The notes beneath the pieces are model-generated. The model ran no database searches. It was not told the origin of the DNA and saw only the letters and a program-made list of their open reading frames with translations. A DNA stretch of 42,467 nt. Source: a virus. The position numbers were made by a program, and so were the translations under genes. The stretch is taken from positions 1-42,467 of IMG/VR virus record IMGVR_UViG_3300050136_000027. One strand, given 5' to 3'. Below are positions 1 to 41,240 of the stretch, piece after piece. Position 1 is the first letter of the stretch; the number at the start of each line of letters is the position of its first letter.

Positions 1-3000
1 CCCGATAGATAGCCGGGACTCGCGGAAGTCAGCGAATAGTCTGTGCCGCCGCCAACGATGGACGGATACTGATTCGATGCGTTCCAACCCTTGAAGAACG
101 TGGCCGGGTTAATCGAGGTGAGAGTGCCCGTCTGTGTGCCAATGAATGCAGACCCACCGCCGTGTGTATTGACAAAGCATGTAGCTGTGTCACAGGCGTT
201 GTTCGTGAACAGGAGCGGCAGCGCGTTGTTCCCCGTGCTCTCGCGGAACTGATAGCCGACGCAGCAGGCGTTGATGATGACGTTGTTTCCGTAAGTCATC
301 GTCGTTAGGTTGAGCGCCCCAGTAAATGGAGAATCATACATATGGACATCGACGCTTCCACCGTTGTCCCCGCAATTTATCGTGTTGTTGGTAATGATCG
401 AGCCAATACCCCAGTGATTAGCTGTGATGCAGGACTGTGAAATCACCACCGCCGGGTTGTTGTAGATGATGTTATTGGAGATGGTTTCGTTGGGCGCGGC
501 GCCGTAAATGTTGACAGAAGAATTCAGACACGCCGATCCGCAGGTAGCTGGTGTGCCAACATCCGTGATTACGTTACCTGTGATCGTCTGACCATAATGC
601 CAAGGCTGAGAATTCGTCGGACAACTCCCGGACGCGCACCCATTTGGATAGCCCGGCTGCACCGTGGTGCTAGAGAACCCGGCATAGACTCCATAGGCCC
701 CGTCATTCGTGTTCTTGAGAATGTGACTAATCCAAGATTGTTTCAAGGCACATAAGGTGCAGTTGAGTTCCACCCCGGCCTGCGTATAGTGGCTGGAATC
801 CGCTCCGGTCGCCGTGCCCAGGAACTCGAAGCCAATTACCGTAACGTAATCTCCACCGACTGCTTGCACGGCAGAGCCGTTCTGCCCCACGCTTATAATG
901 CCTTCCTGCACCACGTTGTCGCTGGCTTCAAGAATGCACGCAGGCGGGAACGTGTAAACAGCGCACGTGAAGAGAATTGGTTGAGTCGCGGAGCCTTCAA
1001 GGCCAATGAAGTAATGATAGAGAGAACACCCGGACCATGCACAAGCGGTGTCTTCGCCCGTGGTCATCTGGGCGCGCGAGTAAGTGCCGGGAGCCACAAA
1101 GATTGTCTCGCCCGCCGTGCCCAACGTAGTGTTGGCACTGTTGATCGCATACTCCACGGTCTTCCACGGCAGTGCCGAGGTGCCAGGATTTGCATTCGAT
1201 CCGGTCGCTCCATTCACGTAGTAGTTATTGACCGTGGTACTGGCATTGACTGTCCATGTCGTTGAGGCCGAAACCACATTGAAGGCGATCGTGGAATTCG
1301 CGAAATGGCCGCTCGCTGAAACCGGCATCGTGTACGATTGCGCTCCGGCTGCCGCAAAGTACGAGGTGTTGTTCGAGGAAGCGTTGTCGGCCACTTGCAG
1401 AAAGAGGCTGCCTGCTAAGTTTGACTGGTTCAGTCGAGAAATTAGCGGCGAGGGGGCGATGGTCATGGAAGTTGCAGAGGTGCACGCAGAGATGAGCAGG
1501 ACTGGCGTGCCCGTGGTCGTGAGCGAGGTTCCGCAATTGCTTGTTCCGGCAGAACTCACAGAGGCCTGCACGAGACTGCCAGATGGGATACCCAACGGAT
1601 AGTCACTTAGACTCAATACGGGGACCGCGACTGGAGTCGAGAAATTAACGGTGACCGTGTTTGCACCCGGCTGCGCTCCGAAGATTTGGTTGGAATAATA
1701 GACAGCCTGATTCACGCCTGTACCAGCGATAGGACTGTTTGCCGCTTGAGTATAGGGATTGCCGCTGGAATCCGTCACGGAGGTGATCGTGGCGGCGGTA
1801 TTCCCCCAGCCCACAACAACCACGTCTAGATCGCCCGCGCCTTGGTAGTTGTAGGACGCGGCAATTGAACTGGCGCTGGTGGTCAGTGAGTGGTAGCCAC
1901 CACCCTCGTAGGTGCCCGTGCCTGCGGTGATCGTGGCGGTGCCTGCCGCGACTGCGGTCGCCAAGCCTGCGTTGTTGATGGTTCCGTTGCCCGTGCTGCC
2001 GCCTGCGGCTTTTAGCGCCACGCAGGCATCCACCCATGTCGTTGTGGCAGCGGAGTCTGTCATGTTGCCGTTGAAGGTGGCGGGAGGGACGTTCAGGTCC
2101 ACCATCAGAGTGTCGGCCCAGCCGTTCATGAATAGCTGCGTGTAGGGGGAGTTCGCGGCGATCCCTCCCGTGGAGCCATCGACGGCGAAACAGACAATGC
2201 CGTCCTGACCGTAGGAGGTCGTGAGATTGGGCGTGACGACATTGACCGTGGCGGAGCCGGGCGTGGTCGAGAAGGCAGAGCCGTCGGCGGTGCAGGACGC
2301 CACGCCGCTTAGTTCGATGATAGCCATGGCGAAGTCGGAGACAGAGGCCGCGGCGTGGCCTACGACCGTGTTGGAGGCGCTCGAATTGAGAATCGCGCAA
2401 TCCACCCGCGTCGTGCGCGTGCTGGTCGTGTGGTTCGTACCGATTTGGACGAACGTAGAGCTATCCGTCTGCGTAGGCGCGTTCAGTACGATAGAGGTCG
2501 ATGCGATGCTCGAAAACACCAGCAGGGCATTGCTTGCGGTCATCGTCTTAGGTGCACAGGTCGCGTTGGCGTTGCCCCCTTCGTTGCAGGCCTCCTGATT
2601 GCCTGTATTGATGATCGTCGAATAGCTTGAGCCTGACGACGCCCCCCAGTTGACATAAAGCGGCGGATTATAGGTCGTGCCTTGAAAATGGCCGTCAGTA
2701 AAACCAGCGGTCGCAACGAACTGCTGCGTGCCAGGAAGGATAATGGACGAGTTCGGCGGCGTAATCGACATGCTATTGATTGCCGCGTTGCTGGCAGCCC
2801 CGGTTCCATTCAAGGTGATCGTTTGGGGAGAGCCAGGGACGCTGTCGTTGATGTTCAACGTGGCCGTCCGCGCACCGCTCGCAGTAGGCGCGAAGCTGAT
2901 CCCCACCTGACAGGAGAGTGTCGGCCCCACGCTCGGAAGGCAAGCGTTGGCTGGGGCGTCGATGATGAAGTCTCCCGCATTGGTCCCGGTGATTGTGGGC

Positions 3001-4157
3001 AGGGAGAAGATGAGGGGGATAGGCCCCGTGTTGGTAAGGGTCAGGACTTGGTTCGCAGAGGTAGTGCCGATTGTCTGAGATGCGAATATGAGCGGTCCTG
3101 GGGGGCTGATGCTGATTGAAGCCGCGTTGTAGCCGGTTCCAGTCAAGGAAACCGTTTGCGGCGGAGTGGAAGAGCTAATTGAAATCGTGGCCAACTCCGG
3201 CGTGGTTAAGGTTGGCGTGAACTGCTCCTGAAAAGTGCACACCCCGCTTGCCACCAAACTGGAACCGCAAGTGTTAGATCCCGCGACGATAGAGAAGTCC
3301 GCCGCATTCACTCCGCCCGGAGGCGACACTACAATCCCCGTTACGGTTGCTGCTGTCCCGTTTGACACCGTTTCCGTAATGGGTTGGCTGGGAGTGTTGA
3401 GAGCCACTTGACCAAAAGCAGCAGTCGGAGGCGTGACACTGAAGACACCGGGGGGGGGAGGGGGAGGAGTAATCGCAGTGGCACTAAACCCTGTACATAC
3501 ACCCGACTGCGGCTGAGAGAAGGTAAACGTAGCAGAATAGGGAGTCGTTGAGCTAAACAGCGGCCCCCCTACATTGATAACGAAATTGTTATTGTCCCGG
3601 CACTGCGTAAGAATCGGAAGACCCGTAAACGTTGTTGGCAAGGTCACACTGAGAACATTGCTGAACGCCACTGACTCAAAGGCGAAGTTACTATTTCCGC
3701 CCCCTCCGCCCCCGCCGCTTCCCCCAACGCATACATCGCTGAAAGTTCTTGGGTAAGGCAAGGTTGGTCCTGACCCACTACTGATTACCACGTCATACCC
3801 CGGACATGCAGGAGCGACGTAGAAAGTGAAACTCCCATCTGTATTCGCCGTGAAGGGGTTTACGAGGACGGTTGGGCTTGCGAGATTGTTCGAATAGATA
3901 GACGCTTTCAACGTTGTGCCTGTCTGGTAAATCGTCACCTGACACAAAGGGAAGGACGCTTGAACTCCCGCTCCCGCATTGACATTCGTCGTGCCAATCT
4001 GCTGTGTTCCTGTCGCAGGCAAGCCCTGAGTGAGCGGTTGTTGCCCACCAACCTGACAGTCACCATTCACCCCGGCAAGAGTCCCCTGAGCACGTCCAAG
4101 GTTAGACATAGACACTACAGTGATCAGCAGCAGCACGATTTGGAGCCAGCGCTTCAT
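1..4157 (-). CDS. Giant exported surface or fibre protein with Ig-like and beta-helix domains (3' end cut off)
   Basis: One frame stays open from ATG at 4157 to the window edge, at least 1385 residues. Residues 1-24 form a clear signal peptide (MKRW, Leu/Val-rich core, cleavage near GRAQG). After a Gly-rich stretch and a poly-Pro stretch come two HYDIN/ASH-like Ig domains, about residues 235-340 and 340-450, each with the typical ADF..I and C..FTPT or C..FAPT signatures. A Ser/Thr/Gly/Ala-rich region follows. From about residue 980 a right-handed beta-helix begins (YYVNG..GSNANPGT..PW, then repeated ITNN/ISNN turns). The start shares one base with the stop of the upstream gene (TGATG), so the two are translationally coupled. 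Beta-helices of this kind often bind or cleave polysaccharide, so receptor binding is a likely role. A Sec signal is unusual for a virion protein. Host-surface exposure or gene capture from a bacterium are alternatives. Confidence 0.85.
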   Translation of the reverse strand, partial: MKRWLQIVLLLITVVSMSNLGRAQGTLAGVNGDCQVGGQQPLTQGLPATGTQQIGTTNVNAGAGVQASFPLCQVTIYQTGTTLKASIYSNNLASPTVLVNPFTANTDGSFTFYVAPACPGYDVVISSGSGPTLPYPRTFSDVCVGGSGGGGGGGNSNFAFESVAFSNVLSVTLPTTFTGLPILTQCRDNNNFVINVGGPLFSSTTPYSATFTFSQPQSGVCTGFSATAITPPPPPPGVFSVTPPTAAFGQVALNTPSQPITETVSNGTAATVTGIVVSPPGGVNAADFSIVAGSNTCGSSLVASGVCTFQEQFTPTLTTPELATISISSSTPPQTVSLTGTGYNAASISISPPGPLIFASQTIGTTSANQVLTLTNTGPIPLIFSLPTITGTNAGDFIIDAPANACLPSVGPTLSCQVGISFAPTASGARTATLNINDSVPGSPQTITLNGTGAASNAAINSMSITPPNSSIILPGTQQFVATAGFTDGHFQGTTYNPPLYVNWGASSGSSYSTIINTGNQEACNEGGNANATCAPKTMTASNALLVFSSIASTSIVLNAPTQTDSSTFVQIGTNHTTSTRTTRVDCAILNSSASNTVVGHAAASVSDFAMAIIELSGVASCTADGSAFSTTPGSATVNVVTPNLTTSYGQDGIVCFAVDGSTGGIAANSPYTQLFMNGWADTLMVDLNVPPATFNGNMTDSAATTTWVDACVALKAAGGSTGNGTINNAGLATAVAAGTATITAGTGTYEGGGYHSLTTSASSIAASYNYQGAGDLDVVVVGWGNTAATITSVTDSSGNPYTQAANSPIAGTGVNQAVYYSNQIFGAQPGANTVTVNFSTPVAVPVLSLSDYPLGIPSGSLVQASVSSAGTSNCGTSLTTTGTPVLLISACTSATSMTIAPSPLISRLNQSNLAGSLFLQVADNASSNNTSYFAAAGAQSYTMPVSASGHFANSTIAFNVVSASTTWTVNASTTVNNYYVNGATGSNANPGTSALPWKTVEYAINSANTTLGTAGETIFVAPGTYSRAQMTTGEDTACAWSGCSLYHYFIGLEGSATQPILFTCAVYTFPPACILEASDNVVQEGIISVGQNGSAVQAVGGDYVTVIGFEFLGTATGADSSHYTQAGVELNCTLCALKQSWISHILKNTNDGAYGVYAGFSSTTVQPGYPNGCASGSCPTNSQPWHYGQTITGNVITDVGTPATCGSACLNSSVNIYGAAPNETISNNIIYNNPAVVISQSCITANHWGIGSIITNNTINCGDNGGSVDVHMYDSPFTGALNLTTMTYGNNVIINACCVGYQFRESTGNNALPLLFTNNACDTATCFVNTHGGGSAFIGTQTGTLTSINPATFFKGWNASNQYPSIVGGGTDYSLTSASPGYLS
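4094..4107. repeat. Dispersed 14-bp near-palindrome, copy 1
   Basis: The plus strand reads GTCCAAGGTTAGAC, one base from the consensus GTCTAAGGTTAGAC. It lies inside the signal-peptide coding part of the giant exported protein, where it encodes SNLG. This is the only copy in the structural half of the window. Confidence 0.6.
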
Positions 4158-5653
4158 CAGTTAAAGATTCCGACCATCGGCACGTGCATCGTGCTGTTGT
4201 TGGTAATGTTGGTGCTGCTCATTGTGCTAAGTAGTGCGCCAGAAGAGCAGACATCGGTCGAGTTGATTCCAAATGTGTTGGCAGGGGCGCTGGTTCCCGA
4301 TAGCATTTTGGTGGAAGCGTTCGCAGGGCCACCAGGATACATTTCTGAGATGATGCTGGTGGTGTTGCTGGCGCAGTAAGCCAAATAGTAGTTTGTCCCC
4401 GCCAGCATAGTGAACGTCGATAGCGATGTGCCACAGACCTGCGTTGCCGTCGTCGTGCTCAACGGCCCGGTATGCCACTGGCGAGTCAATGTCGTCCCTG
4501 AGAGGGAGTAGATTCCCACATCCACCGTGCCACCGGAGTCGAGTGTAGTCACCTGAACGCAGCCAGTGGCACCAAGCAATTTCTGCGTCGAGTTCCAAAA
4601 ACGAGAGACATAAACGTTATTGGCAGTGGCCACTACTGCACCTGCAAGCAGAGGCGTTGCGGTATTCTCCAGCGTGACGAAGTAGGCACACCCTGAGGTG
4701 CAGCCCATAGTTACCGCCGTTGGTGCGGCAGAGGATGCGGTATTGTTCATCAGCACCGCGCCCGCTGCAATGGGTGCTTGGGTCAGCGGTACGGCCCCCG
4801 TGGAAGCTGAATTATTAAAGATTACCCCATCGCCCGTGATGCTAGTGACCAAGGTCGCCGGATTATAAGAAAATTGCGTATAAGTAAGCGAAGACCCTCC
4901 AGATCCGATGCTGGTGACTTGCGACGTGAGCAGCCAACTGGTAGTCGTATTGACCGTGCCGGATTGAACCGGGATAGCCCCCGTGTTGTTTACGTCCGAT
5001 GGCGTGTCGTAGTCGACTGCGCGGGTGAATACCGGCGACACCAGCGAGGCTCCTACCACCGTAGCTGTGTAGATACCATTCTGGGCAGCCGTGCTTTGAT
5101 TCTTGAGTAGCACCCGCTGCCCGATAGTGTTGATGGCGATTCCATCCAGCGAGAACGGTCCGGTTGCGGTAACTGTGAAGGTGTCGCCAATGCCACCGCC
5201 AACCTGCGTATAGGTGCCCGTGAGGTTCGCCGTAGATGCCGCAAGTACCGCCACTGCCGGGTTCACGCCCGCCACTGCGTTCGAGACGGCGGTATCGGTG
5301 TAGAGGGTTGTTGCAACATTGCCCGAGCCATCCAATTGAGGTTGCGTGGTCGCTGTTGTCCCGTTAGGGAGTGCCGTACTCGCGCTCGATGTAGAACAGT
5401 TGGTTCCCGTGCAGGAGACAATACCGTTGGTTCCGGGATTAGAGATGCCCGTGCCGCCCCCGCCTTCCTGCGTCCACGTTCCACTCTGACAGGTATAAAT
5501 TGTACCGAGTCCCACCACAACTTCCATTTGTGCATTCCGGCCGCATAACCCAGACGGAGCAGAGTACACATAAGCGACATACCCATTCCCTACCACCACC
5601 TGAGCGGAGGCTGAGGCACAGAGAAACAAAATGGCTGCGAATACTTTTTTCAT
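4157..5653 (-). CDS. Exported fibre-like protein with signal peptide
   Basis: 498 residues. The N-terminus is a signal peptide (MKKVFAAILFLCASASA, predicted cleavage after ASA). Next is a short domain ending in a YTCQSGTW motif, a Gly-rich linker and a PQLDGSGN..TLYTDTAV segment typical of phage tail-fibre stalks. A beta-rich, Thr/Ser/Asn-rich C-terminal half follows. It overlaps the upstream gene by four bases (ATGA) and the giant protein downstream by one, so all three are probably made from one message. The stalk-like sequence and position at the end of the virion module suggest a fibre or baseplate protein. The signal peptide is the odd part. The function is inferred from context only. 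Confidence 0.75.
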   Translation of the reverse strand: MKKVFAAILFLCASASAQVVVGNGYVAYVYSAPSGLCGRNAQMEVVVGLGTIYTCQSGTWTQEGGGGTGISNPGTNGIVSCTGTNCSTSSASTALPNGTTATTQPQLDGSGNVATTLYTDTAVSNAVAGVNPAVAVLAASTANLTGTYTQVGGGIGDTFTVTATGPFSLDGIAINTIGQRVLLKNQSTAAQNGIYTATVVGASLVSPVFTRAVDYDTPSDVNNTGAIPVQSGTVNTTTSWLLTSQVTSIGSGGSSLTYTQFSYNPATLVTSITGDGVIFNNSASTGAVPLTQAPIAAGAVLMNNTASSAAPTAVTMGCTSGCAYFVTLENTATPLLAGAVVATANNVYVSRFWNSTQKLLGATGCVQVTTLDSGGTVDVGIYSLSGTTLTRQWHTGPLSTTTATQVCGTSLSTFTMLAGTNYYLAYCASNTTSIISEMYPGGPANASTKMLSGTSAPANTFGINSTDVCSSGALLSTMSSTNITNNSTMHVPMVGIFN

Positions 5654-6120
5654 CGCGTGATCAAGACGTTCGCGTATACCGCGTTGGTCATCGTCGCTAA
5701 ATAGGCTCGACTGAACCTGGCCCAGAATGTCGGCAACTCAATCCGCCCAGAGTACGAGCCGTTCAATCCTCCAGTCAGAGAGGCCACAGTGCTGTATTGA
5801 CTATCCACATCAATATCTGAAGTCTGCCAGTCAACCTCGAATGCTCCGGGGTTCACTACTCCGCCACTGATGTTTGTAAAATAAACCTGCATCGAAGCGC
5901 CAAAGGGGTAGAACGAACTCTTGATCCGCTCCAACTGCACTGCGATGCTGGCGTAAGGATTGCCGCCATTGGCCAGTGTATTGACTGTGGTCAACGCCGA
6001 TCCGCCGCCCTTGGTGAATAGTTGATTCTGAAATAGCCACTGTTGGCTGTTGTCACGCAAGAGGATCGCCTGGCCGGGACCAGGATAGAACCCTGCTGGA
6101 GTTTGCGGAAGATTCTGCAT
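5650..6120 (-). CDS. Virion-module protein, unknown
   Basis: 156 residues with no family I recognise. It is rich in aromatic, Asn, Ser and Thr residues, consistent with a beta-structured virion protein. It has a Gln-rich N-terminal part (QAILLRDNSQQWLF) and a C-terminal FWARFSRAYLATM segment. It lies two bases after the adaptor-like gene and overlaps the fibre-like gene by four bases, so it is part of the late operon. A small tail or head-completion protein is the most likely role. Confidence 0.7.
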   Translation of the reverse strand: MQNLPQTPAGFYPGPGQAILLRDNSQQWLFQNQLFTKGGGSALTTVNTLANGGNPYASIAVQLERIKSSFYPFGASMQVYFTNISGGVVNPGAFEVDWQTSDIDVDSQYSTVASLTGGLNGSYSGRIELPTFWARFSRAYLATMTNAVYANVLITR

Positions 6121-6122
6121 GA

Positions 6123-7127
6123 TTACATCCTCCCCACGTTCAAGCCACCAGTAATTGTGCTGAAAGGCTCTCCTTCGTTATACGGATCTCGGTTAAACCG
6201 ATTGAAATACAATTCGCACAAGTCGCGGTCCTCGTCCTTGATCGGCTTCATGAGAGTTTTGAATTCGTCGCGCGCCTGCTCTGCTAGGAACTGCCAGTTT
6301 GCGCCTGAACCGCGTTGGACCTCCTCCCCCTTCTGCGCTTCCTTGAACACATACGCGCACTCTTTCGCGCGCCACAGCAACGCTTCTTCCGTCAGAGGGT
6401 AGGGGACGGTATCGCTCGGAAGAATGAGCGACGGCCCACGCGAGAGAAATTGAAACGTATACGGAAGCACCGAGAGAGGGTGCGGCCACAGTTCAAACAG
6501 AAAATTACCAAACGTTGCACTGCCGGGGCGAGTGTCAACCTGAAATGGAACAATGTAGTTCGGGTCATCGAAGATCGTGCGCTCGGGATCAACTACAGCT
6601 AAATCTCTCTGGCTGTACGTCACGTAATCCATCGGCCAACTGTTTGTAGTATCGCGTGCACTCAGGAACCTCTTGAAGTTGGCTACCGGGCACGCAAAGT
6701 ACGCTTGGTAAATCATGTATGACTGCTTAGACCCTCCGGGCTCCATCCACGGGCGGTCAAGGGTAAGCACAATGGCCGCAGGGTTTGTCAGGTTGAACGA
6801 GATGATGCTGTAGAGCGAGTAATAAGGACTCCTGATCTGGAGTTGGTTAAAGAACGGCAGGTTGCTGTTCAGAATGTAGGCCAACCATGCCGCCGAAGAA
6901 GTCGCGTCCCCGACAATCGTATTCTGAAATGGAGTGGTTGTAATCGTGCCGACACTCTGCCCAGTGGAACCAGTGGGGAACAAGAGCCCTGGCGTAAGCC
7001 AGCCGGCAGTTTGAAGCTGAAAACTCCACATCTGACTGCCTTCAACCAGACCCAAGGCTTCATCGAGCAGAGTGACAGCGTAAGCGTCCGCGAGATTGGG
7101 CACTTCGAGACAGAGCCGCCTAGCCAT
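6123..7127 (-). CDS. Probable head-tail adaptor or tail-tube-like structural protein
   Basis: 334 residues, soluble, no signal peptide. The N-terminal stretch (LADAYAVTLLDEALGLVEGS) is helical. The middle is beta-rich (FNLTNPAAIVLTLDRPW), and the C-terminus is a charged helical segment (LLWRAKECAYVFKEAQKGEEV). This helix-beta-helix arrangement and the position after the capsid genes resemble adaptor or tail-tubular proteins of short-tailed phages. I cannot assign a family with certainty. The preceding gene is the tiny basic protein ending at 7188. Confidence 0.65.
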   Translation of the reverse strand: MARRLCLEVPNLADAYAVTLLDEALGLVEGSQMWSFQLQTAGWLTPGLLFPTGSTGQSVGTITTTPFQNTIVGDATSSAAWLAYILNSNLPFFNQLQIRSPYYSLYSIISFNLTNPAAIVLTLDRPWMEPGGSKQSYMIYQAYFACPVANFKRFLSARDTTNSWPMDYVTYSQRDLAVVDPERTIFDDPNYIVPFQVDTRPGSATFGNFLFELWPHPLSVLPYTFQFLSRGPSLILPSDTVPYPLTEEALLWRAKECAYVFKEAQKGEEVQRGSGANWQFLAEQARDEFKTLMKPIKDEDRDLCELYFNRFNRDPYNEGEPFSTITGGLNVGRM

Positions 7128-7187
7128 GCTGTTCAGTGAAATACTTCTACCCCCTTTTGTTTCCGCGCCAGTCGCCCTAACGCTGCC

Positions 7188-7349
7188 TTATCGCTTGCGA
7201 CCCTTCTTCGTCACCAGATGGCTCTTGACCATATGCCTCTGGCTGTAGCCCTTGTGCGTCTTGTGGACTTTCGAGGTTATACGTCGGGCAAACTTCTTGC
7301 CCTTTCCTGCCTTAGTTTTGTAGGTTGTTACGATTTTGGTTTTCGCCAT
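7188..7349 (-). CDS. Tiny highly basic protein
   Basis: 53 residues, beginning MAKTKIVTTYKTKAGKGKK and ending KKGRKR. About a third of the residues are Lys or Arg, with several His and no acidic residue. An exact ribosome-binding site (AGGAGG, six bases before ATG) fixes the start. A strong hairpin with a T run sits immediately before that site. Such composition fits nucleic-acid binding, for example packaging or condensing the genome in the capsid, or a minor internal virion protein. It is a second example of the basic micro-protein type found at 10929-11030. Confidence 0.7.
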   Translation of the reverse strand: MAKTKIVTTYKTKAGKGKKFARRITSKVHKTHKGYSQRHMVKSHLVTKKGRKR

Positions 7350-7362
7350 TGTGTCCTCCTAA

Positions 7363-7401
7363 AAATGTGGCCGCCCAGTCACCCTCATGACTTGGCGGCC
7401 A
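7363..7401 (-). terminator. Hairpin plus T run just ahead of a ribosome-binding site
   Basis: On the minus strand a 13-bp stem with one mismatch (TGGCCGCC/GGCGGCCA, then AGTCA/TGACT) and a six-base loop is followed by ACATTTTTAGG. It looks like a factor-independent terminator. The T run leads directly into the AGGAGG of the next gene at 7349, so it may act as a leaky terminator or an mRNA-processing and stabilising hairpin that changes expression within the late operon. Confidence 0.7.
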
Positions 7402-7428
7402 GCCGCAGCGTTCCGAACTAACTCCGTG

Positions 7429-7773
7429 CTAGTAAACTCCTCCGAATCCACCGAACTGAACCTGTTCTGCCGAAAGATTGACGGCGTTCGCAACCTCAGT
7501 CCCCGGAGTAGCAATGGGGTACCAGTGGGCTACCCACGTCGCCCTCGCTCCCACCGCCGACCCGACAAAGCGAACGAGGTAGTTGCCGCTTACCGACAGA
7601 TAATCTCCATTCAGGCTGTCAATGTAATTGTCGTAGCGAGGCAGCAAGACCGGATCGCCGCTCGTCTTGAATGTGGCAGTGTTCACGTAGGACGCAGGCC
7701 CACTCCCATAACCGACAAACGCAAACCGCTTGCCGATGTAATCCGGGTATCCGTGAAGGAACGTTAGCTGCAT
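7429..7773 (-). CDS. Small virion-module protein, unknown
   Basis: 114 residues. Contains FLHGYPDYIGKRFAFVGYGSGPASYV near the start, a beta-rich centre and a Gly-rich FGGFGGVY end. No signal peptide or membrane segment. It lies five bases after the 215-residue gene and directly before the 7363-7401 hairpin. Position after the capsid gene suggests a capsid decoration, stabilising or head-completion role. The family is not recognised. Confidence 0.65.
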   Translation of the reverse strand: MQLTFLHGYPDYIGKRFAFVGYGSGPASYVNTATFKTSGDPVLLPRYDNYIDSLNGDYLSVSGNYLVRFVGSAVGARATWVAHWYPIATPGTEVANAVNLSAEQVQFGGFGGVY

Positions 7774-7778
7774 CGCGT

Positions 7779-8426
7779 TTACTCCTGTAACACTGGCAAG
7801 TTCAACTGAATTCTGAACAGCCCATTGGACTTTGGCAAGTCAATGGCCGCACCCAGAATGAGTTTCTGGAGGGCGTAGGTCAGCGAGGTGCTCTGTGTGG
7901 GATCATCCACCACGCCAGCAGTGTATGAAACGATCAAATCCCCGATTGACGGAGTTGCATTGGTCAGGGTAGCCCTGCCAAGCACCGTGGCGATACCAAG
8001 CTCCTGCACAAAACCGTAGTTTCCCGGCGTGATGGCATTCAGGAACACCACAGGACGAACAGTGGTCGCGTTTCCAAGGCTTTGATCGTAACTGGTTACG
8101 ATATTTTCCGTGGGCTTGCCAGCCGGATCCCCGTCTGCGATGACCGCCGCGAGAGATGGCATGAGGCCAATCGTTCCCGTCTTGACGTTGCCTGCGGTTG
8201 CCCCCGAGTCCACCAGCACCCGACGAAAACGACCACAATAGAGCGTGCCGTTGGTCACGTATGAAGCTTGTGCCGCTTCCTTGTTGGTCAGATCGAAGTA
8301 GTCGCCTTGATTCAGTCCGCCAGCGAACACGGGAATGCCGAGTCGCAAGTCTTGGAAGTACGAAGGAGACGCGTCATTTGCCCCATTGATTGCGAGCCAA
8401 GTTGGCAGAATCGGTTGAAGTGGCAA
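7779..8426 (-). CDS. Probable capsid-associated structural protein
   Basis: 215 residues, immediately downstream of the major capsid gene (13-base gap). The sequence is Ala/Gly/Thr-rich and beta-prone, with a central LYCGRFRRVLVDSGATAGNV segment and a hydrophobic C-terminus (FRIQLNLPVL). Gene order (scaffold, capsid, this gene) is that of decoration or stabilising proteins. The family assignment is an inference from context. Confidence 0.65.
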   Translation of the reverse strand: MPLQPILPTWLAINGANDASPSYFQDLRLGIPVFAGGLNQGDYFDLTNKEAAQASYVTNGTLYCGRFRRVLVDSGATAGNVKTGTIGLMPSLAAVIADGDPAGKPTENIVTSYDQSLGNATTVRPVVFLNAITPGNYGFVQELGIATVLGRATLTNATPSIGDLIVSYTAGVVDDPTQSTSLTYALQKLILGAAIDLPKSNGLFRIQLNLPVLQE

Positions 8427-8438
8427 TTTAGTTCTCCT

Positions 8439-9788
8439 TTAGCTACTGAATCCAAACGCGACGGCCGAGTGCCTCGGCATGACATTATACAAATTCGTCC
8501 CAAGCCGCATGAACAGCGCATCCATCGACACGTTGTTCGGCATCGGACTCCGGCGCAGTCCGAAGTTCCAACCCTTCTTGTCAGTCGGACGCAGTTTGAA
8601 ACTTCCTGTCTCCAAGAAGTAGAGAACTTCCCCGACCGTGCAAGTGGCGTTCGACGGGAACCCGCTGCCTGTGGTTGAGATGGTGACGTTCGCGCCACCG
8701 GAAGTGTACTGCGGACTCGTAATGGTGGACGTCACAGTGTTTCCGCCCGCACCATCCACGAGGTTTGCGTTTCCAGACTTGCCGCCGGTTCCCGCGCCGA
8801 TAGCGATGTAATCCTGTGCAATGGCGGAAGGTGCCAGAGGATCGGGGTAGATGTCCACACCGTTGAACGTAAACCCATCCCAAGCGATGTCGTGTTTGGT
8901 ATTCGAGACATCCCGACGCTGTGCGTCGAGCGCATTCGCTACCGCAGCGAAGCCGAACACATTGGTGACCCCCAAGTCCGGCTTGCCTCCGGTCACAATG
9001 CACTGCGCCCAGAGCCGCATGAGAGCGTTGAAATCAATCTGGCCTGTGCCAGCGACAGCCGGAGCAGCAGTAGTTCCCGTGGTCGGGGCCTGACCTAACC
9101 AGAGTGGAGTCGAGTTCAGAGCTGGCCCAATCACGCCGTTGCGCGTGTCGCCGCCGTAGGTTGCGTAAATGTTCCCGAATGGAGATGGATCGACACCGTT
9201 GTTTAGTGCCTCGTCCAGTCCGTTCGAGTTCAGAATCCGGTTGTCAGAAATATTTAACCCGGACGGTTGCCCGTGACGGTAGGAGTCCATTTCCAGCATC
9301 GTGTTCATCATCATGGTCATGTTCTCCATGAGGATTTGATACTGGTTCGCAATCATTGCCGGGCCGGAGTTAACGACTCCCCCGGTCCCGCTTCCATCGT
9401 CCAACTCCCAGTCATCCAAGGGTGCCCACGAAACATACGCCTTCGGCAGAAACTTCATGCCCGTATTCAACTGCTGGCGAGTGACCGTCACCGTCGAGCC
9501 TGGCGCTACCGCCGCGCCTTGCACGCGCCCGTAGATGAATCCTTCAAACATTCCCGAACCGCCAAGAAATGGGTCCATGACACCGGCGGCTCTCAACTTC
9601 GCCTGAAAGGGAGTGTCTACAAAAAGATTGTCGTAAACTACATTACGCCTTACACTTTCAAGATTCGTGGCGTCGATCTCATTGTAGAGAGGGTCGGTCA
9701 ATTGGCAACTGAGGACGCCCACGCCATTTGCGGCACTCTGACTGAACACTCTTTCATCGTTCAGTATGGATTTTGAGATGTTAAACAT
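8439..9788 (-). CDS. Probable major capsid protein
   Basis: 449 residues, following the scaffold gene by 17 bases in an operon with portal and TerL. The N-terminal part includes LFVDTPFQAKLRAAGVMDPFLGG. The middle has a Met-rich helix (MENMTMMMNTMLEMDSYRHGQ). The C-terminal third has FGFAAVANALDAQRRDV, a FNGVDIYPDP turn and a final GTNLYNVMPRHSAVAFGFSS segment like the ends of HK97-fold capsid subunits. Size and gene order fit. Identification rests on these and not on a single diagnostic motif. Confidence 0.75.
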   Translation of the reverse strand: MFNISKSILNDERVFSQSAANGVGVLSCQLTDPLYNEIDATNLESVRRNVVYDNLFVDTPFQAKLRAAGVMDPFLGGSGMFEGFIYGRVQGAAVAPGSTVTVTRQQLNTGMKFLPKAYVSWAPLDDWELDDGSGTGGVVNSGPAMIANQYQILMENMTMMMNTMLEMDSYRHGQPSGLNISDNRILNSNGLDEALNNGVDPSPFGNIYATYGGDTRNGVIGPALNSTPLWLGQAPTTGTTAAPAVAGTGQIDFNALMRLWAQCIVTGGKPDLGVTNVFGFAAVANALDAQRRDVSNTKHDIAWDGFTFNGVDIYPDPLAPSAIAQDYIAIGAGTGGKSGNANLVDGAGGNTVTSTITSPQYTSGGANVTISTTGSGFPSNATCTVGEVLYFLETGSFKLRPTDKKGWNFGLRRSPMPNNVSMDALFMRLGTNLYNVMPRHSAVAFGFSS

Positions 9789-9805
9789 TCAATCCTCCCG
9801 TGCCG

Positions 9806-10648
9806 TTACTGAATAGTGGCGTTCTCTGCGATTTCCTTCTGAATCCGTTGCTGCGTTTCCTTGTGCCGCAACTCGCGTGTCGGCATTTTCAGTGGATCAG
9901 GCCGCGCGCCTTCCTTCACAGCCTTGTGAACTTCCGCGAAGCGTGAAGTCTCAGCCTGGCGGATCATTGGATTCGAGCTAACGCGCTCGGCCCACTCTCT
10001 GTCCGAAGCGTCTTTTGCTTCCTTTCGAATCGCGTCGTCATGAGTCTTTTGATCGGCTTCGCGCTTGGCCTTTTCTTTGCCAGCGAAGTCGTACTTGATC
10101 GCGGCGTATTCGGCGGGACTCCGGCGCTGCGCGGCCGCTTCTCGGATGATCGCGGTAGGCGAGTCTGGCATTTCCGTACCGTACAGAGAACGGTATTTCC
10201 AAGATGTGTCGGCGAGGAATGCGAACGCTCCACCAAGTTCATCGCGCAGCGCCTTCACGGGGTCAGGTCCAGGGGGCGGAGGAGTTCCGCTCGGGCGGAA
10301 CGTGCCGTCTGTGTTCCTGACTGGAGAACCGGGGGTTGCGGGAGGAGTGAAGGGTTCAGCAGTGGCCACGAACCCACCCTCTTTCGCCTTGGTCGCCAGG
10401 GTTTTGTAGTAGTCGCGTTCCGCAGTCAAGTTTGCTTGCTCGTTCGCCCATTGATCGAGGCGTGGAGCGATTTCGGTGTCATACTGCTGCGCCTGAGCGC
10501 GTTTGGCGAGTTCAGCCTGCTCAAGCGTTTGCGATGCCGTCGAGAGAACTTGCGTCAATGCGCCCGTCACCTTTGCATCGAGAGCTTTTACCTGTTCGTC
10601 GGTCAAACCGGACGCCTTGAGAATTTCTTCCACAGTTGCTTGCGGCAT
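9806..10648 (-). CDS. Probable scaffolding protein
   Basis: 280 residues, highly charged and mostly helical. The N-terminal VEEILKASGLTDEQVKALD is followed by a long Gln/Ala/Glu coiled coil to about residue 90. A Pro-rich linker (PSGTPPPPGPDP) comes next, then a Lys/Arg/Glu-rich helical C-terminus (MPTRELRHKETQQRIQKEIAENA). Low-complexity helix, central Pro hinge and basic tail are hallmarks of capsid scaffolds. It sits directly before the capsid gene. No protease signature is seen. Confidence 0.75.
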   Translation of the reverse strand: MPQATVEEILKASGLTDEQVKALDAKVTGALTQVLSTASQTLEQAELAKRAQAQQYDTEIAPRLDQWANEQANLTAERDYYKTLATKAKEGGFVATAEPFTPPATPGSPVRNTDGTFRPSGTPPPPGPDPVKALRDELGGAFAFLADTSWKYRSLYGTEMPDSPTAIIREAAAQRRSPAEYAAIKYDFAGKEKAKREADQKTHDDAIRKEAKDASDREWAERVSSNPMIRQAETSRFAEVHKAVKEGARPDPLKMPTRELRHKETQQRIQKEIAENATIQ

Positions 10649-20431: not shown

Positions 20432-20587
20432 TCATCGGTTTAGCCAGTCCATAAACTTTGCGAAATTCGGCAGCCAGTTCGTCATGGCAGCGCCGATCTG
20501 TAATGCCAACCATGCGAGAGGGATGCTTAGCACGAGGCCGATAGGGAATAGCGCGATCTGTCTAAGGGCCAGCGTGCGCGGAGTCAT
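20432..20587 (-). CDS. Single-pass small membrane protein
   Basis: 51 residues, overlapping the upstream stop by ATGA. One long hydrophobic segment, roughly residues 9-36 (ALFPIGLVLSIPLAWLALQIGAAM), then a short polar tail ending WLNR. It directly follows an exported Cys-rich protein. Holin or other membrane accessory is possible but nothing identifies it further. Confidence 0.6.
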   Translation of the reverse strand: MTPRTLALRQIALFPIGLVLSIPLAWLALQIGAAMTNWLPNFAKFMDWLNR

Positions 20588-21090
20588 CACTCACCACCTT
20601 TAACTTTATGGCACCACTTCTTACCGTTCTCGGCGGTGAGCAGTACCCGCGCTTTGTCGGCACAAGTCCACTTTGTCACGAGGCACTCTTTAGTGTTCTC
20701 GTCCACTCTCGCGTATTTCCTGCATTCATCAACGAATCCTTCCACAAATGCAGCATCGTTGCGACTAGGTTTAAATCTTGAGATATGTGAGATCGCGGGC
20801 ACGTCTTCCGGCTTTGCGGGCTTCGTCGCATGGCAAGTTCCACTCATACCCCCCGGATCAACTGAGCACACCATCGGGAACGCGCCCGGCGGACGCTCGC
20901 CGCACTCTTCCGGGAAGATGTCGCGGATCAACCTGGAGGATGCGCCGAATCGTAGATGGTCTGCACATTGCGCCAACCGCAAACTCCCGTCATTATTAAC
21001 CTGCGGTATAATCTGGAAATCGAATGACGGCTTCGTTGCCTGCCCGCTCATCATCCCAGCCAGCGCCCACATCAGTAAGAAAGCTCTCAT
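20587..21090 (-). CDS. Exported Cys-rich protein
   Basis: 167 residues with a signal peptide (MRAFLLMWALAGMMSG, cleavage near GQA). The mature part has eight Cys (for example QCADHLR, EECGER, MVCSVDPGG, GTCHA, DECRKYA, KECLV, WTCADKA, KWCHKV), suggesting periplasmic disulfides. Start codon ATG at 21090 has GGAGGG ahead of it. Coupled to the downstream membrane protein. Function unknown. A lysis or superinfection-exclusion role is possible from location outside the membrane. Confidence 0.65.
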   Translation of the reverse strand: MRAFLLMWALAGMMSGQATKPSFDFQIIPQVNNDGSLRLAQCADHLRFGASSRLIRDIFPEECGERPPGAFPMVCSVDPGGMSGTCHATKPAKPEDVPAISHISRFKPSRNDAAFVEGFVDECRKYARVDENTKECLVTKWTCADKARVLLTAENGKKWCHKVKGGE

Positions 21091-25670: not shown

Positions 25671-26243
25671 CTACCACTTCCGCTTGTGATGAACCTTAAC
25701 CAGTGAACCACACTTAGTGTCCCCGGCGCAGACTCCAGACTGCCATCGCGCTTGCAAACTTTCCGCCGTGGGCAAAGCGATAGTCAGGGAGCGAGTTGTA
25801 ATCGCGGGGCTTGCTGCTGCGGTGGGCGCAAGCTGTTTCACAATCCCGGCCACAATGTCCACAATCAGGTTTACCCAAGCCGTTGCCTTCGTCGTCGCAT
25901 CCGTGCTTTCAAGATGCAATGCGGCAAGATTCTGCCGGAGATTCGCCTGTAGCGCCTGAGCCGCCGCAAGAAGATCGCTTAACGCGCCCGAAGTTTTGTT
26001 CTTCTCATAAGCATCGTAGTCGGCTTGGATCGCATTCAAACCGGCTGTCGCAATACCTGTGAGCAACTGTAAAGCTGCCGCGTCTGCCGGCGAGATTGCG
26101 CCAATGGCTGTTTCAAGAGAAGCTGCCGTTTGGAGTGCGAGGTCAATGTCCGACAAGATGGCATCCACCGAGCAAGCTGTCATACTGAAGCAAAGAACAG
26201 CAATCACTGAGGTTTGGAAGAAGATCGTTGCGAATCGCTTCAT
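25671..26243 (-). CDS. Predicted lipoprotein
   Basis: 190 residues. Signal peptide with lipobox (LCFSMTACS, Cys at residue 24). The mature part is helical and Ala-rich (AALQLLTGIATAGLNAIQADYDAYEKNKTSGALSDLLAAAQALQANLRQNLAAL), with a hydrophobic stretch VNLIVDIVAGIVKQLAPTAA. TTAGGAGAG ahead of ATG. It lies at the 3' end of the recombination/methylase operon. Phage lipoproteins can block superinfection or act as spanins; nothing here decides. Confidence 0.65.
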   Translation of the reverse strand: MKRFATIFFQTSVIAVLCFSMTACSVDAILSDIDLALQTAASLETAIGAISPADAAALQLLTGIATAGLNAIQADYDAYEKNKTSGALSDLLAAAQALQANLRQNLAALHLESTDATTKATAWVNLIVDIVAGIVKQLAPTAAASPAITTRSLTIALPTAESLQARWQSGVCAGDTKCGSLVKVHHKRKW

Positions 26244-36517: not shown

Positions 36518-36928
36518 GTGGCAAAGCCGCGCAAACGTAACAGTTTCAAAGAAGCGTTACGCTCCGCCGAGATGCGACTTGCACTGGCGGAGCGTCAGCG
36601 CACTGCGCGGCGGAAGGAACTCTCAGCCCTAGATGTAGAGATACCAGCTTTACAGCAGACTATCGCTGCCTTGCAGAAGCAGTTAGGTAAGAAGGGAGTG
36701 ATATCCCACGTACCCGGACCCAAACAATCCGAGCAACATTCCGTTGCAACCGGGGGCAATCCGAGCGGTAACGAGACTGTGATTCCATCCACCATCCCAC
36801 CTGAGATAGCCAAGCATCTTGTGCTGGATTTGACGGGGATGGGCTCGATACCTCTAAAGAAAGGTTCTGAGACTCCACAGAGAGAACTGACAGAAGAAGA
36901 ATTGTTGGCAGAGGGGGACGTTAAGTGA
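36518..36928 (+). CDS. Coiled-coil protein
   Basis: 136 residues from GTG at 36518 (MAKPRKRNSFKEAL). Residues 10-55 form a coiled coil (MRLALAERQRTARRKELSALDVEIPALQQTIAALQKQL). A flexible Ser/Gly/Pro-rich part and an acidic end (ELTEEELLAEGDVK) follow. Overlaps the glycosyltransferase start by GTGA. Function unknown. Confidence 0.6.
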   Translation: MAKPRKRNSFKEALRSAEMRLALAERQRTARRKELSALDVEIPALQQTIAALQKQLGKKGVISHVPGPKQSEQHSVATGGNPSGNETVIPSTIPPEIAKHLVLDLTGMGSIPLKKGSETPQRELTEEELLAEGDVK

Positions 36929-38127
36929 GCACGCCGCTTTTGATCCTCAGTGACGCGCCGACCGCAGGCTCAGGCTTGGGAAGAATTACGCGCGATCTCG
37001 CCACGCGCATCCACGCCAACCTGTCAGACGTGTTCAGAGTTGGAACCATCGGCTATGGTGGGCCGTTCTCTCGCGCGCTTGGGTTCCCGCAATACTCGAT
37101 GGACATGGAAACCTGGGCCGTTCATAACCTGCCGGAAGTGTGGGAGGATTTCGCAGGGAAGGAAAAGGGAGTGCTCCTCTGGATTTGGGACGCGAGTCGT
37201 GCCCTGTGGTTTGCGCGTCCTGAGAATTGTCCCGAGCCGCGATTGAGAAAGTTTCTTCAGAGCAAGCCGTTCGAGACCTGGGCCTACCTGCCGATTGATG
37301 CCACAGGGCCAAATGATCGCCTGACCGGGGTACTCAAGCACATCATTGAAGGCTTCGATCGGCAACTCGCGTATTCCGCGTGGGCTCAGGGAATCCTGAA
37401 ACGAACATGTCCAACCTTAGACATAGACTGGCTTCCGCATGGGATTGATACCAGCATTTTCCATCCACAGCCGCGAGTCCAGGCACGACACAGTTTCGGA
37501 GCGAGACTCGGAGCCAAACAGGTTAAGGGAAAGAACATTGGGCAGTACGTCTCGATTCCTGACGATGCGTTCCTTGTCGGAATTGTTGGCACAAATCAGA
37601 TACGGAAAGACTGGGGCCTGGGACTCGCTACGGTCGCAGAGCTTGCAAAAAACCGCAATGTCATGGTGTGGTGCCACATCGACGTACTGGAACGGCATTG
37701 GTCAATCCCGGCTCTCTTGAATGACTTCGGGTTAGCCGACAAAGCCATTGTCACGACGGTCATGTATCCAGACGAAACAATGGCATGGGCGTATTCGGCC
37801 TTGGATTGCTTCCTTGCGGTGGGGCTCGGAGAGGGCTTTGGATACGGAGCAGCAGAAGCACTAGCGTGTGGAGTGCCCGTTGTGGCTCCGTACTACGGTG
37901 GTGGGGAGTTTATCCCTGAAGACTTCTTGGTTGAACCACTCGCGTGGAGGATCGAGGGCGTTTATGACTGCATGAGGCCAGTGATGAGCGTTACGGACTT
38001 CGCGTTCAAGGCGCAGCAAGTCGGCAAGGCCAAGGGGCTCATGCAAGGCTCGCTCTTGCCGTCCCGGTATGAGTGGCAGAATCTTTGGACTGAATGGGAA
38101 TATTGGCTCCGCAGGGGGATCAAGTGA
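36925..38127 (+). CDS. GT-B glycosyltransferase (GT4-like)
   Basis: 400 residues from GTG at 36925. ILSDAPTAGSGLGRITRDLATRI at the front is the acceptor-domain start of GT4 enzymes. The C-terminal half has VGIVGTNQIRKDWGLGLAT and GLGEGFGYGAAEALACGVPVVAPYYGG (about 298-325), the E-x7-E donor-sugar site. It transfers a sugar from a nucleotide-sugar donor, probably retaining. With two GT-A enzymes and three methyltransferases downstream it would build or modify a glycan. The 14-bp motif lies in its coding sequence (CPTLDI). Confidence 0.85.
   Translation: MSTPLLILSDAPTAGSGLGRITRDLATRIHANLSDVFRVGTIGYGGPFSRALGFPQYSMDMETWAVHNLPEVWEDFAGKEKGVLLWIWDASRALWFARPENCPEPRLRKFLQSKPFETWAYLPIDATGPNDRLTGVLKHIIEGFDRQLAYSAWAQGILKRTCPTLDIDWLPHGIDTSIFHPQPRVQARHSFGARLGAKQVKGKNIGQYVSIPDDAFLVGIVGTNQIRKDWGLGLATVAELAKNRNVMVWCHIDVLERHWSIPALLNDFGLADKAIVTTVMYPDETMAWAYSALDCFLAVGLGEGFGYGAAEALACGVPVVAPYYGGGEFIPEDFLVEPLAWRIEGVYDCMRPVMSVTDFAFKAQQVGKAKGLMQGSLLPSRYEWQNLWTEWEYWLRRGIK
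37409..37422. repeat. Dispersed 14-bp near-palindrome, copy 11
   Basis: GTCCAACCTTAGAC, one difference, in the glycosyltransferase coding sequence. Confidence 0.75.
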
Positions 38128-38447
38128 TTAAACTGAAGCCAAGAGCACATTGGCGGGAGTTTCGGAATCCGGGCGTTATCGGTGCGAAGTGGTATCAGTG
38201 GGGCGATCTGCGCGTCTGTGTAGGCGATCCGAAGGCCGAGGGCCATCATCACATTTCAATCTCGCACCCATATCGCTATCCGACTTGGGATGAGATCTAC
38301 ACGGCCCGCTACGATCTGATGCCGGACGATATCACGTGTGCGATTTTTCTTCCGCGCAAGAGCGAGTACGTGAACATTCACCCTAACTGCTTCCATGTCC
38401 ATGAAGTCGCGGATGCGGAAGTGAAGTCGGGGATCATTGGAATATGA
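38124..38447 (+). CDS. Phage DUF7694-like protein
   Basis: 107 residues from GTG at 38124, overlapping the glycosyltransferase stop (GTGA). HHHISISHPYRYPTWDEIYTARYDLMPDDITCAIFLPRKSEYVNIHPNCFHVHEV matches a family of phage proteins with the pattern ISHP.RYPTWDE...R..LMPDD....LP...EYVN.HPNCFH. Function unknown. Its place between glycosyltransferases is noteworthy. Confidence 0.7.
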   Translation: MIKLKPRAHWREFRNPGVIGAKWYQWGDLRVCVGDPKAEGHHHISISHPYRYPTWDEIYTARYDLMPDDITCAIFLPRKSEYVNIHPNCFHVHEVADAEVKSGIIGI

Positions 38448-39190
38448 GCCGCTTAGTTCTCTGCGTAGCCACGCGCCGCTGGCACGGCTGGTTTGACTGC
38501 GTGCAGACGTGGACAGTTACGTCTAACCTTAGATACCGCATCCAGGTTGTCCCTGACCAAGACGTTCTGCCGGCGTACCAGGAGCTTTACGAAACAACGT
38601 ATGAGCCGATTCTGGGATTCCTGCACGATGATTTGGAAATCTATGAGCCTGACTGGGACTTACGCGTTATGGCAGAGTTTGACGATCCGACCATCGGCAT
38701 GGTCGGCTTTGGGGGAGCTAGGGGCCACGGTACGGCGAACCTATACGAAGTTCCTTATCACCTCCCAAATCTCGCTCGGCAAGGATTCATGTCAAACATG
38801 CGCGAGTGGTATCTGCACGGCTCTCTTGAAAAGGGCAACAGGGACGTTGCCGTGCTAGATGGGTTCGCCGTGTTTGTGCGGAGGTCGGTTCTCGACAGTT
38901 GGAAGCACTACAAACCGCAAGTCACGAAATACCCTACATTCGACATGCTCGACATATGGAAAGTTGGCGGATTCCCTTTCGGTGTGCCAGTTGGCTATTT
39001 CATGTGGTGCGAGAACCTGTGTTGTGAAGTTCGGAGACAAGGTTTTCGTATCCGGCTGGTTGGGGTTGAGTGCCATCACATCGGCGGACGTACCTCGACA
39101 GTCCACCAAATCTCAGATGACTACCAAGCGGAGCACGCCTACTTTTATTCAGCCAATCGAGACGTTATGCCCTACGCGGTGAAGGAGTAA
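38444..39190 (+). CDS. GT-A glycosyltransferase (GT2-like)
   Basis: 248 residues, ATGA overlap with the preceding gene. GFLHDDLEIYEPDW with the metal/donor-binding DD at 62-63, then VGFGGARGHG and AVLDGFAVFVRRSVLDSW, FDMLDIW.. GYFMWCENLCCEVRRQGFRIRLVGVECHHIGG. This is the fold and motif order of family 2 glycosyltransferases in phage and bacterial glycan clusters. Predicted inverting sugar transferase. Confidence 0.75.
   Translation: MSRLVLCVATRRWHGWFDCVQTWTVTSNLRYRIQVVPDQDVLPAYQELYETTYEPILGFLHDDLEIYEPDWDLRVMAEFDDPTIGMVGFGGARGHGTANLYEVPYHLPNLARQGFMSNMREWYLHGSLEKGNRDVAVLDGFAVFVRRSVLDSWKHYKPQVTKYPTFDMLDIWKVGGFPFGVPVGYFMWCENLCCEVRRQGFRIRLVGVECHHIGGRTSTVHQISDDYQAEHAYFYSANRDVMPYAVKE
38521..38534. 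repeat. Dispersed 14-bp near-palindrome, copy 12
   Basis: GTCTAACCTTAGAT, one difference, encoding TSNLR in the GT-A gene. Confidence 0.75.
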
Positions 39191-39193
39191 AAG

Positions 39194-39880
39194 TTGGTCA
39201 ACATAACCATGCAGGTTAGGAATCGGTATCGTCTCACACGGCAGGCCCTCAGGTCGCTGGCTTTCACCACCGATGCGACGCTCACCATCTTGGATGACAG
39301 GTCCGACGAAGAAACAAGGGCGTACCTAGAACAGTGGAGCAAAATGCCGCGCGTTCACGTCATCCGCAACAATGTTCCGCTCGGCACAGGCCAGTTGCGA
39401 AACATGGTCATGGAGGAAAGCAGGAAGCACTTCGGGCAGGGGGAGTACGTGGCTCCGCACGATAACGATACCTATTTTTTGCCGGGATGGTTGGACGCTC
39501 TGAAGAGTTGCTACCAACTGTCGGAGGAGCACGGATACCGTCTCCTCAGTGGGTATCGTCACCCCTTTCATCATCCGATTTCTAGACTGCCGCTACTATT
39601 CTATGCGGTCGATGAGGTCATAGCTCTCGCCACGCAATCGACCTTTATGACGTGGGCAACATGGGACGCCTTTGGCCCCTACTGCGATACTCCCGTCGAC
39701 CGAACCTGTCAGAGCGAGGATGTTGACTTTGGAAACAGAATCACGAAGGCGGGATACAAACTAGGCTGCGTAACGCCGAATGTCGTCCACGCGACAGCGC
39801 TCAAGAACACATTCGGCGAACCGGGGCCGGGATGGGAACTAGTCAAAGCTCAGTGCCCGAAAGGGGTTATTTGTGAATAA
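39194..39880 (+). CDS. GT-A glycosyltransferase (GT2-like)
   Basis: 228 residues from TTG at 39194, preceded by GAAGGAG. NITMQVRNRYRLTRQALRSL, LTILDDRSDEET (34-35 DD), VPLGTGQLRNMVM and APHDNDTYFLPGWL with the DND at 90-92, QSEDVDFGNRITKAGYKLG near the end. A typical family 2 glycosyltransferase core. Second of the pair in this operon. Confidence 0.8.
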   Translation: MVNITMQVRNRYRLTRQALRSLAFTTDATLTILDDRSDEETRAYLEQWSKMPRVHVIRNNVPLGTGQLRNMVMEESRKHFGQGEYVAPHDNDTYFLPGWLDALKSCYQLSEEHGYRLLSGYRHPFHHPISRLPLLFYAVDEVIALATQSTFMTWATWDAFGPYCDTPVDRTCQSEDVDFGNRITKAGYKLGCVTPNVVHATALKNTFGEPGPGWELVKAQCPKGVICE

Positions 39881-39916
39881 GAATCCACAGCTTGGGTACA
39901 AGGAGAAGAATCCACC

Positions 39917-40195
39917 GTGGCAATAATCGACAGACTTGCTCTCAGCGCCAAGAAACAACAGCAATATCGGTATATTGTTCGCAGAATCGGGGCGCACTCA
40001 CCAAGGGAAGTCAGAAAGCGTATCGCAGACATATATTTTCTCAGGCACTATGCTGGCTGGTCGCTCGGTCAATTGGCTAACCATTTTCACGTATCGAGAG
40101 AACGTGTGCGCCAGATCATCTCTCACCATCGACCACCGCGATTCACTATTTGCCATCCCAGAGGATCGTGTTTGCTGGGGGCTATCAATGGATAG
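39917..40195 (+). CDS. Sigma70 region 4-like HTH protein
   Basis: 92 residues from GTG at 39917 (AAGGAG upstream). Residues 41-70 YFLRHYAGWSLGQLANHFHVSRERVRQIISHH match the -35-binding helix-turn-helix of sigma factors. There is no region 2, so it is not a complete sigma factor. It overlaps the methyltransferase start by eight bases. It could redirect RNA polymerase or bind promoters such as those containing the 22-bp repeat. Confidence 0.65.
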   Translation: MAIIDRLALSAKKQQQYRYIVRRIGAHSPREVRKRIADIYFLRHYAGWSLGQLANHFHVSRERVRQIISHHRPPRFTICHPRGSCLLGAING

Positions 40196-40769
40196 ACTCT
40201 CAGAACTTGCCGAAAAATACGGCAGCGACAAAACTCCGTCCCTGTACCACAACTACACGCCGTTCTACGACTCACTCTTGAGATACCGCGACGTGAAGCG
40301 AGTGCTCGAAATCGGCATCGGCACAGTAGAGTGCATGGGACACGTGAAGGATTACAAGCCTGGAGCCAGCCTACGGATGTGGCGAGATTACTTCCCGACC
40401 GCGGAAATATTCGCGCTCGACAACGAGATGAGCGTACTGGAAGGACTGAAGAACGAACCTCGCATCTATCCGGTCTTCTGCGACCAAAGCGACCAAGGCG
40501 ATCTAATCGATATAGTCAGGAGGCTCGGAGGACTGCAGTTCGACCTAATCGTTGACGACGGCTCACACCAAGTTGCGCACCAAGCGTTGACTGCCAACAC
40601 CTTCATCCCCAAACTGCTCTCACGGCAAGGTGTTTACATTATTGAGGACGTGATGTGGCGCAAAGACTTGTACGCGCTCCTACCTTGGCCGGCCGAAGTA
40701 AGGCTATTTGATCTCAGGCGCAGCCCCGATGACTGTTTATTCGTGATCGAGGGTGGGGATATTTACTGA
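40188..40769 (+). CDS. Class I SAM-dependent methyltransferase (CmcI/macrocin O-methyltransferase-like)
   Basis: 193 residues. ELAEKYGSDKTPSLYHNYTPFYDSLL, then motif I VLEIGIGTVECMGH (39-52), AEIFALDNE (motif II), QFDLIVDDGSHQVAHQ and GVYIIEDVMW. The YGSDK..HNYTP.Y front is typical of this sugar or natural-product O-methyltransferase group. Probably methylates a sugar added by the upstream glycosyltransferases. Confidence 0.8.
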   Translation: MDRLSELAEKYGSDKTPSLYHNYTPFYDSLLRYRDVKRVLEIGIGTVECMGHVKDYKPGASLRMWRDYFPTAEIFALDNEMSVLEGLKNEPRIYPVFCDQSDQGDLIDIVRRLGGLQFDLIVDDGSHQVAHQALTANTFIPKLLSRQGVYIIEDVMWRKDLYALLPWPAEVRLFDLRRSPDDCLFVIEGGDIY

Positions 40770-40770
40770 C

Positions 40771-40995: not shown

Positions 40996-41215
40996 AGGGA
41001 AAGGCCGTCCGCGAATCAAGTTTCGTACGCCGTTTCGGGTATCCGGTAACTGTAAACGCTGCACGCCAGAGAAAAAGTCGTCAGGACACCACGTCTGCTA
41101 CAACGTGAATTGCATCTGCCCACATCATCCCAATTGGACGGCGCTACACGCACGCGAAGCCGGACTCCGAACACGATCTAAACCGGGGGACTTTGATTAC
41201 AAGGAGAATTCATAA
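40982..41215 (+). CDS. Small Cys-rich protein
   Basis: 77 residues from GTG at 40982, with GGAGG seven bases upstream. Cys group CKRCTPEKKSSGHHVCYNVNCICPHH is a probable zinc site. Basic N-terminus. Overlaps DUF3310 by 14 bases. No family recognised. Confidence 0.6.
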   Translation: MRSDKGKGRPRIKFRTPFRVSGNCKRCTPEKKSSGHHVCYNVNCICPHHPNWTALHAREAGLRTRSKPGDFDYKENS

Positions 41216-41240
41216 TTCCGCCACTTGGGGATGTGATGCG

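Follow-up and report, generated by a model that had tools for sequence, protein, structure and literature searches.

The virion operon of the virus studied here ends in two genes, g2 and g1, whose products both begin with a Sec signal peptide (SP), and the domain directly behind the SP of g1 is, judged by moderate similarity, a head-binding domain (HBD) of the P22 tailspike type. A pair of cysteines in this domain co-varies with the SP among relatives, and several SP genes stand in a row at the same position across the clade. An SP together with such a cysteine pair, as exported proteins typically have it, suggests that the host ships these spikes from its cytoplasm and that they would reach the virions late, or never. 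The best explanation, to which we give about an even chance, is that of Sec-exported, disulfide-bonded tailspikes that would be added to the particles either in the periplasm or once the cell has lysed.

The window, i.e. the whole stretch of DNA analysed, is a linear IMG/VR virus record of 42,467 bases. On the minus strand, its left end holds the virion operon, which runs in the order TerL, portal, capsid protein, small head/tail genes, a 334-aa tail gene, a 156-aa gene, g2, and g1 (Table 1). The genes at its end overlap by stop and start codons: g2 does so with the gene upstream (ATGA at 5650-5653), and base 4157 is common to the g2 stop and the g1 start. No contig extending g1 beyond the end of the window was found in IMG/VR.

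Table 1. Features of the g1/g2 region and of the neighbouring virion genes, in window positions
Feature	Positions	Strand	Description
g1	3..4157	-	SP, tailspike head-binding domain, Ig-like domains and beta-helix start; 1385+ aa; 3' end beyond the contig
g1 Sec signal peptide	4089..4157	-	residues 1-23 (...NLGRA/Q); rule-based, cleavage site approximate
g1 head-binding (virion-attachment) domain	3720..4088	-	residues 24-146
g1 Ig-like region, choice-of-anchor D	2778..3425	-	best stretch residues 334-441
g1 C-terminal part, beta-helix start (DUF1565)	3..1190	-	ends at contig edge
g2	4157..5653	-	SP, Cys-containing N-module, phage fibre domain and C-terminus without assignment; 498 aa
g2 Sec signal peptide	5603..5653	-	residues 1-17 (...ASASA/Q)
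g2 fibre domain	4868..5296	-	residues about 120-262; common to SP-less tail fibres of other phages
156-aa gene without SP	5650..6120	-	between tail gene and SP cassette; conserved in the window's clade
gp11-like tail gene	6123..7127	-	position of Tunturi_1 gp11; without SP
Major capsid protein	8439..9788	-	27% identity to Tunturi_1/2; query for relatives

A rule-based Sec predictor called an SP on g1 (MKRWLQIVLLLITVVSMSNLGRA, with Q following the cleavage site) and on g2 (MKKVFAAILFLCASASA, again followed by Q), both predicted to be of the signal-peptidase I type, and called none on the other operon genes from TerL through the cassette. The sequence-only reading, which had described two virion-operon genes with Sec SPs, was correct as to position, and its SPs are upheld by the comparative evidence. 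As a control, the same rules called 3 of 152 control phage proteins (about 2%), of which at least 2 look genuinely exported; they were permissive on shuffled N-termini of g1 and g2, calling 5% and 17%, respectively. Single SP calls therefore carry little weight, and what counts is conservation: a K/R-hydrophobic-AxA arrangement is kept, in frame, across 21 divergent members. These hydrophobic N-termini might be mis-called starts or chance, the proteins being ordinary cytoplasmic spikes. Shine-Dalgarno sequences, weak throughout, do not settle the start codons and leave room for such a reading, as does the permissiveness of the rules; the pattern common to the 21 members, the low call rate among control genes and the near-perfect co-variation of the SP with cysteines (see below) all speak against it, and we consider it very unlikely. 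Start codons downstream of the signal sequences were one of the findings that were to overturn the earlier reading. A downstream start common to the family is unlikely, since 14 of the 20 homologues with an SP lack any Met between it and the mature domain.

The g1 SP contains no twin-arginine motif, neither gene has a lipobox, and both proteins are large and modular. Elsewhere in the window, outside the cassette, two short minus-strand genes without a Pfam match (20587-21090 and 25671-26243) have among them a lipobox (MTAC/S) and a plain SP.

The first 120 or so residues of mature g1 form a domain for which Pfam and PHROGs gave nothing usable. An AlphaFold model of this N-terminus (pLDDT 76) was compared with the PDB by Foldseek, and the best folds were those of the Pan3 tail complex (probability 1.00), the Pam1 tail machine (0.99), and the P22 tailspike head-binding domain (0.99), with modest TM-scores of 0.37-0.46 and no PDB match with an E below 0.001. 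The family profile of the HBD matched the Pan3 'Tail spike protein' chain (E 1e-5), and BFVD yielded, among others, matches to the Vid5 tail spike and to phage proteins of the pectate-lyase type. Moreover, according to tblastn, SP-less tailspikes or depolymerases of the Enterobacteria phages Vid5, MTx, KA2-1, and MQ-4 begin with a homologous domain, and relatives with and without an SP have the HBD at one and the same place in the operon. As in the P22-type tailspikes (P22 gp9; Pan3, Pam1), g1 combines an N-terminal head-binding fold with a place in the virion late operon and podovirus relatives, and it may share their beta-helix-type C-terminal part, for which its match is marginal. The spikes of P22, Vid5, MTx, KA2-1, and MQ-4 start at the HBD without an SP, whereas g1 and 20 other members have one. 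We read g1 as a tailspike/tail-fibre protein, and g2 as probably one as well.

Behind the HBD, g1 contains Ig-like domains, best described by NCBIfam choice_anch_D (E 2.5e-21, two stretches); the Pfam HYDIN/ASH/Cep192 models gave matches below their cut-offs only. The C-terminal part, cut by the contig end, just passes the threshold of PF07602 DUF1565 (20.7 versus a cut-off of 20.3 bits), and relatives of g1 carry Beta_helix and GH16 domains. What had been read as a giant HYDIN/ASH plus beta-helix gene thus keeps its Ig-like domains, for which choice-of-anchor D is the better name, and marginally its beta-helix, and loses the sub-threshold HYDIN/ASH label. The proposal that the domain style was captured from secreted proteins of soil bacteria fits the C-terminal domains (choice-of-anchor D, DUF1565, and GH16 in relatives) but not the domain directly behind the g1 SP, which belongs to phage tailspikes and is not host-type. 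A P22-type HBD in that place argues that g1 would be a tailspike made for export and not simply a captured secreted protein. For g2, the fibre domain is also found in SP-less fibres of other phages, and the structure model is poor (pLDDT 45).

In order to follow the SP among relatives, we assembled 40 HBDs, 21 of them behind an SP and 19 without; SP status was assigned by trying all in-frame starts ahead of the HBD, a procedure that favours finding an SP, and then by inspection by eye. A cysteine pair (at the GxC and FPxC positions) is present in 20 of the 21 SP-bearing HBDs and in none of the 19 SP-less ones (Fisher 3e-10). In g1 the pair is C34 and C72, conserved in SP-bearing members only, with C118/C143 in addition in a close subgroup; known P22-type spikes differ from g1 in having no conserved pair where they were aligned. 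The association holds even between neighbours, since two adjacent paralogous tailspike genes of contig L078 differ in both traits, one (of 5932-8061 and 8065-10221) having SP and cysteines and the other neither. In a tree built without the cysteine columns, three SP changes are needed, two of them forced by well-supported branches, and the cysteines track each SP change in nearly all pairings. Because such changes are few (2-3 independent), a sign test cannot reach significance, and the co-variation is strong evidence but not independent-sample proof. Most simply, it would mean that the SPs function and the HBD folds in an oxidising compartment. Downstream of the anchor domain, cysteine content differs weakly (median 1.88% versus 1.42%, p 0.015), so that the argument rests on the paired sites.

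Most SP-less members from soil begin right at the domain (MQKIQGWSE, MYKIQGWVE), like known spikes, and in L079 (5950-9252) the sequence after the SP, MQRGQGW, matches the way in which SP-less members begin. It is possible that in L079 an SP was placed before the old start, or that the SP-less form derives from the SP form. Such a retained start, together with a Met near the SP end in some members, including M17 of g1 in the window, could also allow a dual fate, in which some chains are exported while others, kept in the cytoplasm by an inefficient SP or an internal start, become the virion spikes. We regard this as improbable, given that such a Met is missing from 14 of 20 members and that a cysteine pair exclusive to SP members implies an oxidised final form.

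With the capsid protein as query, the search retrieved 24 loci in IMG/VR as well as two cultured podoviruses of Acidobacteriota, the Tunturiibacter phages Tunturi_1 and Tunturi_2 (27% identity). Both of these and four near-complete soil relatives (G001-G004) have 3-6 SP genes in a row at the cassette position, which in G001-G004 lies between the tail-adaptor gene and nozzle-like genes. In Tunturi_1, the genes after gp11 with an SP are gp12, gp13, gp14, gp16, and gp17, and the N-terminus of gp12 shares 34% identity with that of g1. The gp12-gp17 genes of Tunturi_1/2 thus hold the cassette position of g1/g2, with mature parts that are mostly unrelated (PMC11924767). They are annotated as hypothetical, tail fibre, tail spike, pectin lyase or virion structural proteins, and the portions of the Tunturi paper covered by our text search make no mention of an SP for them (PMC11924767). 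No other large spike candidate is obvious in Tunturi_1 or among the SP-less ORFs of at least 250 aa in G001-G004. Tunturi_3, _4, and _5 infect the same host genus without being related; in the first 50 kb examined of each, fibre genes have no SP. GTDB genome contigs scanned with the anchor-domain profile and the capsid protein gave no relative, so no named host emerges beyond that of Tunturi, and the identity of the window phage's host would follow from the Tunturi relatives alone. A Tunturi_1 gene outside the structural operon, gp78 (L031, 15745-16947), is annotated 'tail protein' and is lipoprotein-like (LTGC), with a Pro-rich linker and an SGNH-like motif.

One SP gene each in G002 and G003 has a GH16 domain. 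Giant SP genes (about 2000 aa) of L095 (7093-13614) and L097 (6809-12775) hold Glyco_hydro_16 among Ig-like domains. At the other end of the window, on the plus strand (36925-42390), lie three glycosyltransferase-like and two methyltransferase-like genes, a cluster that could serve surface glycan modification; G001-G003 have a glycosyltransferase-like gene with a start similar to that of 36925-38127.

A head-binding-like domain alone does not prove virion attachment, as illustrated by WceF of Pantoea stewartii, a Tat-exported protein with a P22-like head domain, encoded in a bacterial exopolysaccharide cluster, which is not part of a virion (PMC7949094). WceF also has a neck and a beta-helix that cleaves stewartan (PMC7949094). 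It resembles g1 in pairing a signal peptide with a P22-like head domain in an exported, or for g1 predicted-exported, protein; it differs in its Tat signal and bacterial cluster, where g1 has a Sec signal, a phage operon, Ig-like domains, and a marginal beta-helix match. We do not take g1 for a WceF-like bacterial gene, given its phage operon, the missing twin-arginine motif and the lack of GTDB relatives of anchor domain and capsid. Nevertheless, this exported tailspike-fold enzyme working off the virion is a precedent for the main rival reading, which we hold less probable: the cassette proteins would be exported and never enter the virion, as former tailspikes that modify the exopolysaccharide of host or neighbours, mask receptors or hinder superinfection, while another protein (e.g. 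the nozzle-like one) binds the receptor. The secreted-style C-terminal domains (choice-of-anchor D, DUF1565, GH16) would suit such a role. However, the HBD has been retained over large divergence at the operon position of SP-less tailspikes, each genome has several cassette genes and no obvious replacement spike, and the late-operon place leaves a short time for action before lysis. Release to coat the host or to exclude superinfecting phages had also been put forward from the sequence; we found no sequence evidence preferring either over virion spikes, and a PADLOC search for defence systems gave 0 hits. Superinfection-exclusion lipoproteins and outer-membrane proteins have a lipobox or form a small barrel, and g1 and g2 are large, modular proteins with SPs of the signal-peptidase I type. 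Lom is a phage-encoded protein with an SP, described as an outer-membrane beta-barrel (PMC12309495); the cassette proteins share with it the phage origin and the SP but differ in being large and modular, with no lipobox and probably no barrel.

Assembly of tailed phages is cytoplasmic, and in P22 the spikes are added last. These can also join heads in vitro, as Israel, Anderson and Levine reportedly found in 1967. For exported tailspikes, we infer the following course: g1 and g2 would be translated late, with the virion operon, yet routed via the host Sec pathway; the SP would be cleaved off and the mature spike would fold in the periplasm with disulfides (C34-C72 in g1); finally, the spike would attach to the virion through its HBD upon breach of the inner membrane or once the cell has lysed. 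Further points against this explanation are that the receptor-binding region could instead lie in the large nozzle-like protein, and that spikes would be diluted if they met the particles only after lysis.

In the open literature searched, no paper describes a tailed phage whose virion spikes bear Sec signals, an absence that is not proof of novelty, and the target proteins of phage DGRs have no detectable signal peptides (PMC6199706). It may well be, at a chance we put near one half, that in this lineage the receptor-binding spikes travel by the Sec pathway of the host and fold with disulfides outside the cytoplasm, and that virions are completed in the periplasm or once the cell has lysed. 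The papers searched describe no such two-compartment assembly for a tailed phage. With Tunturi_1 and Tunturi_2 in culture and their host known, the question can be tested now. A clade with Sec signals and SP-linked cysteine pairs on its spikes would either break the rule of cytoplasmic assembly or stand for exported phage effectors of a new class. Export would open disulfides and secreted-type host domains to spikes, and it would uncouple spike addition from head assembly.
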